Shown one piece after another: positions 9,156 to 24,199 of a stretch of DNA of 64,000 bases. A program made the position numbers and the translations under genes. The notes under the pieces were generated by a model, which was not told the DNA's origin, searched no databases, and saw nothing but the letters and a program-made list of their open reading frames with translations. Position 1 is the first letter of the stretch, and each line of letters begins with the position of its first letter. Source of the DNA: Phycisphaeraceae bacterium (GTDB taxonomy: Bacteria > Planctomycetota > Phycisphaerae > Phycisphaerales > Phycisphaeraceae); contig NYZC01000333.1 of NCBI GenBank assembly GCA_002686995.1, forward strand, positions 1 to 64,000. The letters run 5' to 3'.

Positions 9156-10029
9156 GTCGTTCTATCACCTGGCGTCTCTGCCGTTCGAGAACACGCCGGA
9201 TCCGAAGTTCTTCTTCGCCAGCGAGCCGCACCGCGAGGCCCTTGCGGCGATCGAGTACACGATCCGCATGCGCAAGGGGTTCGTGGTCGTGACCGGCGGC
9301 GTCGGCACCGGCAAGACGACCGTCGGCCAGGCCATGCGCGCGCGCTGCGGCAACAAGGCGGATATCGTCGCAGTCACCTACGGGCACACGCGCCGGGACG
9401 GCCTGCTGCGACAGGTGCTGCGCGCCCTGAAGATCGAGCACGACCCGGCCGACGACCACGCGGTGCTCGTCGAGCGCGCGGAGCAGTACCTGCTCGAGCA
9501 GATCGGGGTCGATCGGCCGGTGGTGCTGTTCGTGGACGAGGCGCAGACGCTCGCGGACGAAGCGCTCGAGGAGCTGCGCCTGCTGACGAACCTCGACACC
9601 GCGACGTCGCGGCTGATCCAGATCGTCCTCGTCGGCCAGCCCGAGCTGCGCCCGCGCCTGAACGCGCCGCAGCACGCCGCCCTGCGTCAGCGCATCGTGA
9701 TGGCCAAGCAGATCCATCCGCTCGGTCTCGAGGAGACCGCGGCCTACATCCGACACCGGCTCGGCGCCGCGGCGCTGGATCCCGAATCGGCGCGCGGCAC
9801 GTTCAATGCCGCCGCGATTCAGGCCGTCTACCACAGCACCGGCGGCATCCCCAGACTGATCAACATCACCTGCGATAACTGCCTTCTCATGGGCTACGTG
9901 CGGGAGCAGCGCGTGGTGACCGACTCGACCGTCAACAAGGTCACGTTGGAAATGATGCCGAACTTCGAGATCACAGAGGATTCGGCGCCTCAAAGCCGCC
10001 CGGCGCTCGCGCTGGCAGGGGGTGCGTGA
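9148..10029 (+). CDS. ExeA/GspA-like AAA ATPase (of the type found in XrtA/PEP-CTERM EPS loci)
   Basis: MYESFYHLASLPFENTPDPKFFFAS; Walker A GGVGTGKTTV; Walker B VVLFVDEAQ; overlaps the upstream CDS by 8 nt. Confidence 0.85.
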   Translation: MYESFYHLASLPFENTPDPKFFFASEPHREALAAIEYTIRMRKGFVVVTGGVGTGKTTVGQAMRARCGNKADIVAVTYGHTRRDGLLRQVLRALKIEHDPADDHAVLVERAEQYLLEQIGVDRPVVLFVDEAQTLADEALEELRLLTNLDTATSRLIQIVLVGQPELRPRLNAPQHAALRQRIVMAKQIHPLGLEETAAYIRHRLGAAALDPESARGTFNAAAIQAVYHSTGGIPRLINITCDNCLLMGYVREQRVVTDSTVNKVTLEMMPNFEITEDSAPQSRPALALAGGA

Positions 10030-21272: not shown

Positions 21273-22307
21273 ATGCTCTTCTGCACCCACGAAGATCGCC
21301 CCGAAGCCCTCGCCGGTATCAAGCTCCTCGCCTTGAGCCTCCGGCGGCACTGTCCGCAAGCGAATCTCGTCGTCAGCTATCCGCAACCCGACGACGAATT
21401 CGTCCGGTGGTGCGCGAAGCACGACGTGCGTGTGCTGTCGAACGAATCATGGCGTCACGCGGGCTGGAACATCAAGCCGTCCCTGCTCCGACACCTGCTC
21501 GACGAAGGTCACGAGGCGATCACGTGGATCGACGCCGACATCGCGCTGGCCGGCGCGCTGCCCGCGATCATGCGCGGCCTCGATGCGGACACCCTCCTCG
21601 TTTCACAGGTGTGGGCCTGGGACTACTTTCCCGGCGGCACGGTCCGGACCGCGCTCTGGAATCTCGAGCCTGGCCGTGCGTTGGCCGGCACGGCGAGCAG
21701 CGGCGTGGTCCGCGCCACCTCGGCGCATCGCGAGCTGCTCGAAGCGTGGCAGGAATTGCTCGAAGCTCCGGCCTACCTTGGCGCCCAGGCGCGCCCGGTG
21801 TCTGAACGGCCGATCCACATGATCGGGGACCAGGACGTGCTTACTGCCCTGCTCGGTTCACGCCGATTCGGCACGATCCCGCTCGCGTGGCTCGACCGCC
21901 GTCGCGACATCGTGCTGTGCGTCGGACCCGCAGGCTACACCGCCGGCCAGCGCCTCGGGCATCGTCGATCGACGATGCCGCCGCTGATCCACGGCGCCGA
22001 GCCCAAGTACTGGGAGGCTTCAACAAGTCCGACGTTGCTGCGACGACCGCGCGATTATTACTGGCGCGTCTGCCTGGAGACCTCTCCCTACGCCTGGGTC
22101 GCGCGACAGTATCGTGACGAGCTTGGCGACGAGGTCGCCTGGGCCGATGCGCGCACCACCGTCGGTCGTCTTCTCGCGACGGTCACGGGCGACCACCCGG
22201 CGCTGGCGGGACTTCCGCAGGCACTCTTTCATGGCATAGGCAAACGCATCAAGAAGATGCTGGGTATCACCGCCTGGCCGGACGCCCACGCCCACGTGGA
22301 CCCGTAG
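21273..22307 (+). CDS. Putative GT-A-like nucleotide-sugar transferase
   Basis: 344 aa; AITWIDADIALAGALPAIM (DxD-like), GDQDVLTALLG; genomic context with other GTs. Confidence 0.55.
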   Translation: MLFCTHEDRPEALAGIKLLALSLRRHCPQANLVVSYPQPDDEFVRWCAKHDVRVLSNESWRHAGWNIKPSLLRHLLDEGHEAITWIDADIALAGALPAIMRGLDADTLLVSQVWAWDYFPGGTVRTALWNLEPGRALAGTASSGVVRATSAHRELLEAWQELLEAPAYLGAQARPVSERPIHMIGDQDVLTALLGSRRFGTIPLAWLDRRRDIVLCVGPAGYTAGQRLGHRRSTMPPLIHGAEPKYWEASTSPTLLRRPRDYYWRVCLETSPYAWVARQYRDELGDEVAWADARTTVGRLLATVTGDHPALAGLPQALFHGIGKRIKKMLGITAWPDAHAHVDP

Positions 22308-22457
22308 CCGAAGTCGCCAGACATCAGACGCACGCGCGAATCGCCAGGTCGAATCCGAAGTGTGGCCACTTCGGCTACGAGTTCGGTGCGCGCATGGAGG
22401 TGACGACCGCCTTAATGTCCTGGGCGCAGTCCTCTGAAGTCTGGCGACTTCAGCTAC
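22304..22457. repeat. Three-copy hairpin repeat cluster between convergent genes
   Basis: Copies: GTAGCCGAAGTCGCCAGACATCAG (22304-), CCGAAGTG-TGGC-CACTTCGG-CTAC (22355-22378), CTGAAGTC-TGGC-GACTTCAG-CTAC (22434-22457). Outer arms are 18/19 inverted repeats. Confidence 0.85.
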
Positions 22458-24199
22458 ATCTGCTCGACCACCTGGATGCCCAGCAGATCGAGACCCGTCG
22501 CGAGGGAGCGCGCGACCAGGTCGCAAAGCACGACGCGGCTGTCGCGCTGCGCTTCACTGTCGGCGGTCAGCACCGGGCACTGCTCGTAGAACTGGTGGAA
22601 CTGCGATGCAAGCTCGTACAGGTACGTGCAAAGCCGATGCGGTTCGAGACTCTGCGCCACCGAGTCGATCACGCCCGGCAGTTGAAGCAGGCTGACGGCC
22701 AGGGCGCGCTCCGCCGGAGCACTGAGCTCGACCGGCTGCCGCGCCAGGGCGGACGGGTCGACGCCGCCCTTACGGAAGATCGAACGGATACGGACGTATG
22801 CATTGATCAGGTAGGGCGCGGTGTTGCCCTCCATCGCCAGCATCCGATCCCAGTCAAACACGTAGTCCTTGATCCGATCGCTGCTCAGGTCGGCGTACTT
22901 CAGCGCGCCGATGCCGACGCATTCGGCGATGGCCGCGCGCTGGCCCTCCGGGATGTCCGCGTTCTTCTCCGCGAGCACCGAGCCGGCGCGCTGCGCCGCC
23001 TGATCGAGAAGTTCGACGAGCTTGACGGTGCCGCCGGCGCGGGTTCGGAAAGGCTTGCGGTCGGACCCGAGCATCGACCCGAAGGCGACGTGCTCGAGTC
23101 GCGTCTCGTCCGGCGCCCAGCCGCATTGCCTCAGAATCTGAAAGACCATCGCCATGTGCTGCGCCTGGGGCGCACCGATGACGTAGACGACGCGGCTCGC
23201 GCCCAGCACGTCCATGCGGTAGCGGGCCGCGGCCAGATCGGTCGTCGCGTAGAGGTAGCCGCCGTCGGTCTTCTGCACGATGACCGCCATCGGCTCGTCC
23301 TCGCGGTCGGTGAATCCTTCCGGGTAGACGACCCTGGCGCCGCGGCTCTCATGAAGCTGTCCGGCGCCGTCGAGCGCTTCGACGGTCGCGGACAGATCAT
23401 CGTTATAGGCGCTCTCCGGACGCACGTCCTCGGGTTCCAGCAGCACGCCGAGGCGCTGGTAGATCTTCTGGAAGTGGCTCTGCGACACGTCGACGAGCCG
23501 GCGCCACAGCGCCCGCGTCTGCTCGTCGCCCGATTGCAGGGCCACGACGCGCTGGCGGCTGCGCTCCGCGAACGCCTCGTCCGCGTCGAACTTCTCCTTC
23601 GCCTGGCGATAGAAGCTCTCGAGGTCGCTGACCGAGTCGTCCCGCCCCGCGCCCTCGCCCTGCAGAATCAGCATCTCGATGAGCATGCCGAACTGGGTGC
23701 CCCAGTCGCCGAGGTGATTCTGGCGGATGACGCGATGACCGAGGCACCCCAGCACGCGGCAGATGCAGTCGCCGATCACCGTCGAGCGAAGGTGGCCGAC
23801 GTGCATGTCCTTCGCCACGTTCGGACTGGAGTAGTCGACGACGACCGTGACGGGATCCGATGCCGGCACGATGCCGAGCGAAGCGTCCGCGGCGAGCCGG
23901 TGCACCGCGTCGACGAGGTAGCTTCCCGCGAGCGTCAGGTTCACGAATCCAGGTCCCGCGATCTCGATCCCGTCGCACACGCCGTCGAGATCGAGCGCCG
24001 CGACGATCTCGCCCGCCACGTCGCGCGGCTTGCGCTTCAGCTTCTTGGCGAGCCCCATGGCCACGTTGGCCTGGTAATCCCCGAACTTCACGTTCGCCGA
24101 CGGACGGATGAGCGGATCGACGCCGGCGTGCTCGCCGCCGAAGGCGCGCACGATCGCCGCCTGGAAACGTTCGGTGAGAATCTGATCGATCGCGGGCAT
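22454..24199 (-). CDS. argS: Arginyl-tRNA synthetase
   Basis: VVDYSSPNVAKDMHVGHLRSTVIGDCICRVLGCLGHRVIRQNHLGDWGTQFGMLIE (class I HVGH signature); C-terminal DALR-type anticodon-binding domain. Start reassigned to internal ATG MPAIDQIL. Confidence 0.95.
   Translation of the reverse strand: MPAIDQILTERFQAAIVRAFGGEHAGVDPLIRPSANVKFGDYQANVAMGLAKKLKRKPRDVAGEIVAALDLDGVCDGIEIAGPGFVNLTLAGSYLVDAVHRLAADASLGIVPASDPVTVVVDYSSPNVAKDMHVGHLRSTVIGDCICRVLGCLGHRVIRQNHLGDWGTQFGMLIEMLILQGEGAGRDDSVSDLESFYRQAKEKFDADEAFAERSRQRVVALQSGDEQTRALWRRLVDVSQSHFQKIYQRLGVLLEPEDVRPESAYNDDLSATVEALDGAGQLHESRGARVVYPEGFTDREDEPMAVIVQKTDGGYLYATTDLAAARYRMDVLGASRVVYVIGAPQAQHMAMVFQILRQCGWAPDETRLEHVAFGSMLGSDRKPFRTRAGGTVKLVELLDQAAQRAGSVLAEKNADIPEGQRAAIAECVGIGALKYADLSSDRIKDYVFDWDRMLAMEGNTAPYLINAYVRIRSIFRKGGVDPSALARQPVELSAPAERALAVSLLQLPGVIDSVAQSLEPHRLCTYLYELASQFHQFYEQCPVLTADSEAQRDSRVVLCDLVARSLATGLDLLGIQVVEQM

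Follow-up and report, generated by a model that had tools for sequence, protein, structure and literature searches.

The repeats closest to those described here are the GTAG REPs, a superfamily defined by Di Nocera et al. in 2013 (PMC3733652), with Planctomycetes named among its hosts. As in the repeat at the present locus, its members carry an unpaired GTAG at one end of a hairpin with an 8-bp stem and a short loop; inverted dimers of unlike units, a location in convergent or unidirectional gaps and termini that often give a TAG stop to the flanking ORFs are also common to both. Inverted REP pairs with a preferred spacing, able to fold as one long hairpin, have been described as REPINs (Bertels and Rainey 2011, PMC3116915), and RAYT, or TnpA-REP, genes bounded by REPs as REPtrons (PMC2817692, PMC8266576). 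How REPs spread and come to be sited at gene ends is poorly understood (PMC8266576). Since stop provision by GTAG REPs was already reported in PMC3733652, the kind of element treated here is a known one. What is new is that the stop codons overlapped by the REPs are native; the comparison of protein ends with relatives, the search for displaced stops and the anchoring of pairs by a single edge, all given below, were not found in the literature searched.

The window, a stretch of 64,000 nucleotides from a Phycisphaeraceae bacterium (contig NYZC01000333.1), contains three such hairpins between argS and a convergent gene encoding a 344-aa protein (Table 1). They had been noted in the first-pass annotation, and direct reading of the sequence confirms them. 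The outer copies are alike, two 19-mers agreeing at 18 of 19 positions, and the ORFs bear out the proposal that the GTAG edges supply the TAG stops of both genes. As hairpins the copies are unequal: copies 2 and 3 have perfect 8-bp stems, whereas the 3' arm of copy 1 is damaged (GACATCAG) and its own hairpin is weak. Folded as DNA, copies 1, 2 and 3 have energies of -1.4, -8.8 and -7.4 kcal/mol, respectively, and copy 1 pairs with copy 3 or with copy 2 rather than folding alone; over the 34 nt of the outer arms, 22304-22337 and 22424-22457, complementarity is 82% (copy 1 with copy 3). The tags face outward, with the plus strand carrying copy 1 and the minus strand the other two. Copies 1 and 2 make up a canonical outward-tagged pair, spaced 51 bp apart. 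The name "GT gene" given earlier to the 344-aa gene finds no confirmation, its product having no Pfam match at E<=0.001.

Table 1. Positions of the hairpin repeats and their flanking genes in the window, and of the Y1-type transposase genes elsewhere in the assembly.
Feature	Location	Strand	Details
REP copy 1	22304-22327	+	GTAGCCGAAGTCGCCAGACATCAG; GTAG tag 22304-22307; 3' arm degenerate
REP copy 2	22355-22378	-	GTAGCCGAAGTGGCCACACTTCGG; perfect 8-bp stem, GCCA loop on own strand
REP copy 3	22434-22457	-	GTAGCTGAAGTCGCCAGACTTCAG; perfect 8-bp stem; GTAG tag overlaps argS stop
344-aa gene	21273-22307	+	ends CCG-TAG; stop TAG is the tag of REP copy 1
argS (arginyl-tRNA synthetase)	22454-24199	-	ends ATG-TAG; stop TAG is the tag of REP copy 3
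Composite REP cluster	22304-22457	.	convergent genes either side; outer arms complementary
IS200-like tnpA	contig C119, contig end		typical
Long Y1 protein	contig C289		
Intact RAYT	contig C102, L033:1363-1839	-	bounded by own inverted repeats of ~35 bp (GAGTTTGCGGCCTCGCGGGAGCTCGGCCCTCCAGG)
RAYT-like gene	contig C231, L098:9110-9794	+	double-tagged REP at 9859-9886, 65 bp past stop

In the window alone, the repeat is mildly unusual, at least three near-matches arising in 5 of 100 shuffles. That it is more than chance follows from its genome-wide excess over the reversed pattern: GAAGTCTGGCGACTTC, allowing up to two mismatches, has 194 matches in the 7.8-Mb assembly compared with 8 for the reversed pattern, and the GTAG-tagged form has 161 compared with 0. 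Context statistics were taken from 1.05 Mb fetched around the REPs and annotated with a home-made hexamer-model gene caller (831 genes, 88.5% coding). These regions hold 174 mapped copies, 144 of them with an exact GTAG tag. The 8-bp stem and 4-nt loop lie inside the bounds of the GTAG REP superfamily (stem 5 to 13 bp, loop 2 to 20 nt); the tag, being GTAG, places the repeat outside the CGTC REP superfamily, and an Rfam search returned no match. Outward-tagged neighbours less than 200 bp apart number 35, with a spacing peak at 49 to 53 bp. Unlike in REPINs, about 120 of the 174 copies lie outside such inverted pairs, and the spacers within pairs differ in sequence. Copy number, tag, short stem and inverted pairs together support the earlier description of a REP-like element. 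A looser repeat, GCGGCGTCGCGGGAGCTCCGCCCTCCA, also occurs in several intergenic regions (L060, L064, L117 and others); in one of these, L117, it lies immediately next to a REP.

The repeat is absent from the 120 close relatives searched, apart from one degenerate match, and in a class sample of 397 genomes the others have at most one match per strand, each with one mismatch. We are therefore dealing with a lineage-specific repeat population; compared with the GTAG REP superfamily by description, the stem CYGAAGTS with a 4-nt loop was seen in this genome only. We read the three hairpins as non-autonomous mobile elements such as RAYT (HUH/Y1) transposases move in trans, and the spacing suggests that copies 1 and 2 are a REPIN-type pair and copy 3 a separate unit. 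The reading that we favour, with a probability of roughly 0.6, is that lineage-specific GTAG-tagged REPs, mobilised in trans by a RAYT, have come to lie at native stops via pre-existing (Y)GTAG.

By site, the 174 copies divide into 73 in co-directional gaps, 63 in convergent gaps, 18 in divergent gaps, 11 in genes and 9 at contig edges; per base, convergent gaps are over-represented and divergent gaps under-represented. A same-strand gene lies upstream of 108 copies. The tally of stop codons that the first-pass annotation had called for, taken over these regions, gives a general association rather than a peculiarity of this locus: far from other copies lacking a link to stops or gene ends, the TAG of the tag is the exact stop codon in 43 of the 108 (~40%). 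All other distances from tag to stop up to 100 nt together account for 40 copies, and the spike at distance 0 has p ~ 1e-63 against a uniform spread. Relative to the report in PMC3733652, the stop overlap is here quantified and placed at native ends. Such an overlap could be held to arise after the fact, with REPs inserting anywhere downstream of genes, the stop-abutting hairpins being kept for mRNA 3'-end stability or termination tuning, and the tag being kept as the stop. Copies elsewhere are free to decay, as a tag serving as a stop codon is not; convergent and unidirectional gaps are indeed preferred over divergent ones; and work cited in PMC12306157 reports that ribosomes can be stalled by E. 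coli REPs lying no more than 15 nt from a stop. Alone, selection of this kind accounts neither for a spike at exactly 0 instead of a spread over 0 to 15 nt nor for single GTAGs at native ends, and we regard it as an unlikely explanation of the whole pattern; selection after insertion may contribute to the overlap.

The claim that the element creates stop codons leads to a second alternative, insertional truncation, in which the element lands in the last codons of a gene, its GTAG or GTAGCTGA becomes the new stop, and only short truncations survive. GTAGCTGA contains stops in two of the three frames; a further 10 genes run 4 nt on and stop at its TGA, mostly with an element-encoded Arg-Ser tail. 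The CTGA variants divide 18:10 between TAG and TGA, with no clear difference from 1:1. Protein ends speak against truncation. ArgS has the same C-terminal Met in 29 of 29 relatives checked as in the window's own protein, and the argS stops in these relatives are a mix of TGA, TAA and TAG. PhoH-like, aminotransferase and other conserved genes stopped by a REP end exactly where their relatives do. Usable relatives were available for nine REP-stopped genes: six share their exact end with one relative or more, and seven differ by no more than 2 aa; for six control genes without REPs, the corresponding values are 3/6 and 6/6. Two genes deviate, one falling short of its relatives by 4 aa, as truncation would have it, and one exceeding them by 3 aa; these could have altered ends.

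Moreover, an element that brought its own GTAG into a last codon would be expected to leave the old stop directly behind it. Such a displaced stop was seen behind 0 of 13 pairs and 1 of 30 singles, and no lost coding tail was found at the expected position. These results show that, in the testable genes, the REP-overlapped stops are the native stops and the proteins are not shortened. The creation of stop codons is thus not supported for conserved genes, and truncation seems slightly less probable still than the selective explanation. The companion claim, that the element targets stop codons, is consistent with the native protein ends and the missing displaced stops, but is not proven by them.

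A bidirectional terminator, also suggested in the first-pass annotation, is very improbable as an ordinary intrinsic signal rather than mobile DNA: the genes are convergent and the RNA fold of the cluster is strong (-81.4 kcal/mol, z = -6.4), but a scan of 22150-22650 found no terminator-like site and no T-run or U-tract, an unpaired GTAG tag is conserved on one side, and about 190 near-identical copies are present here, compared with none in the 120 close relatives and at most a single one-mismatch match per strand in the class sample. A sigma-70 promoter scan found none.

The spacing of the edges bears on how REPs reach native stops. In the ten convergent pairs spaced 45 to 57 bp, exactly one edge is at a stop in eight and both edges are in none (our own tally). 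Both edges lie on stops in three cases, including this window, and their spacings differ from 45 to 57 bp, as expected from two separate insertions. The fraction of GTAG sites occupied by a REP is 28% at stops and 22% in intergenic DNA (p=0.18), compared with 0.4% in coding DNA. Sampling around REPs inflates these fractions, to the same extent in the two non-coding classes. The ratio would also fit tags that the element itself supplied at sites other than stops. A pyrimidine is favoured before the tag at occupied sites, in the stop and intergenic classes alike. As a separate observation on the fetched regions, G is the preceding base at 107 of the 167 TAG stops that lack a REP and at only 139 of the 494 TGA stops, perhaps reflecting CTAG avoidance.

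The first-pass annotation had also suggested looking for an associated REP-type (Y1) transposase. A search with PF01797 and NF047646 found four relevant Y1-type genes in the assembly (Table 1). The protein encoded on contig C231 keeps the HxH motif and has Arg at the position of the catalytic Tyr, in an alignment made by eye to the NPV motif. The intact RAYT on contig C102 was set aside as the cognate enzyme because of the separate inverted repeats on either side of it; several more copies of GAGTTTGCGGCCTCGCGGGAGCTCGGCCCTCCAGG lie near this gene and on contig C52 (L137), making this a TIRtron-like element that has a repeat family to itself. RAYT-like genes are thus present, but none that is both intact and REP-flanked was found in this 87.6%-complete assembly, a difference from the described REPtrons. 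RAYTs are frequent in the family, and in sister genomes several have GTAG hairpins of this same build, with 8-bp stems, on their flanks. From the class to which the repeat belongs, a RAYT would be its mobilising enzyme.

A sister genome of the same family but another genus, G009, carries about 33 fresh, near-identical REPIN pairs (GTAGGTCAGGCATGCYTGCCTGAC, spacing 45), none of which occurs in two congeneric genomes. They represent a recent burst and are suitable for studying REP insertion. The pairs lie around RAYT genes on its contig C1 (L298-L347). The REPIN edges are GTAG...CTAC, and with their flanks read pyrimidine-GTAG...CTAC-purine. Most genes end 7 to 30 nt short of the element, and no more than about three of the edges resemble genuine TAG stops, one being that of the RAYT gene itself; strong stop overlap is therefore not universal for such repeats. 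Congener orthologues are mostly 50 to 80% identical in protein, too far for intergenic DNA to be expected to align. For the window itself, no orthologous empty site close enough to read was found: the 120 relatives searched include no congener, and the nearest genome contig match has an ArgS identity no higher than 63%.

Returning to the favoured reading, the simplest mechanism would be insertion at, or merging with, an existing (Y)GTAG. Insertions would survive where this sequence serves as a stop or falls in an intergenic gap, and REP copies would accordingly persist at gene 3' ends. More specifically, and tentatively, since we hold it at somewhat under even odds, pre-existing (Y)GTAG would be the insertion target and G-preceded amber stops its main safe harbour, so that the element, by docking onto TAG stops native to convergent genes, would alter neither protein. 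Either transcript would then have a hairpin beginning 1 nt past its stop; shielding of the 3' end or slower termination by ribosomes, as reported for E. coli REPs, would be plausible consequences.

The sharing of TAG with native stops in ~40% of the copies that follow a same-strand gene makes docking at existing GTAG stops a directly testable hypothesis. It also counsels caution: repeats of this kind at gene ends are not to be taken as a sign of truncated genes.
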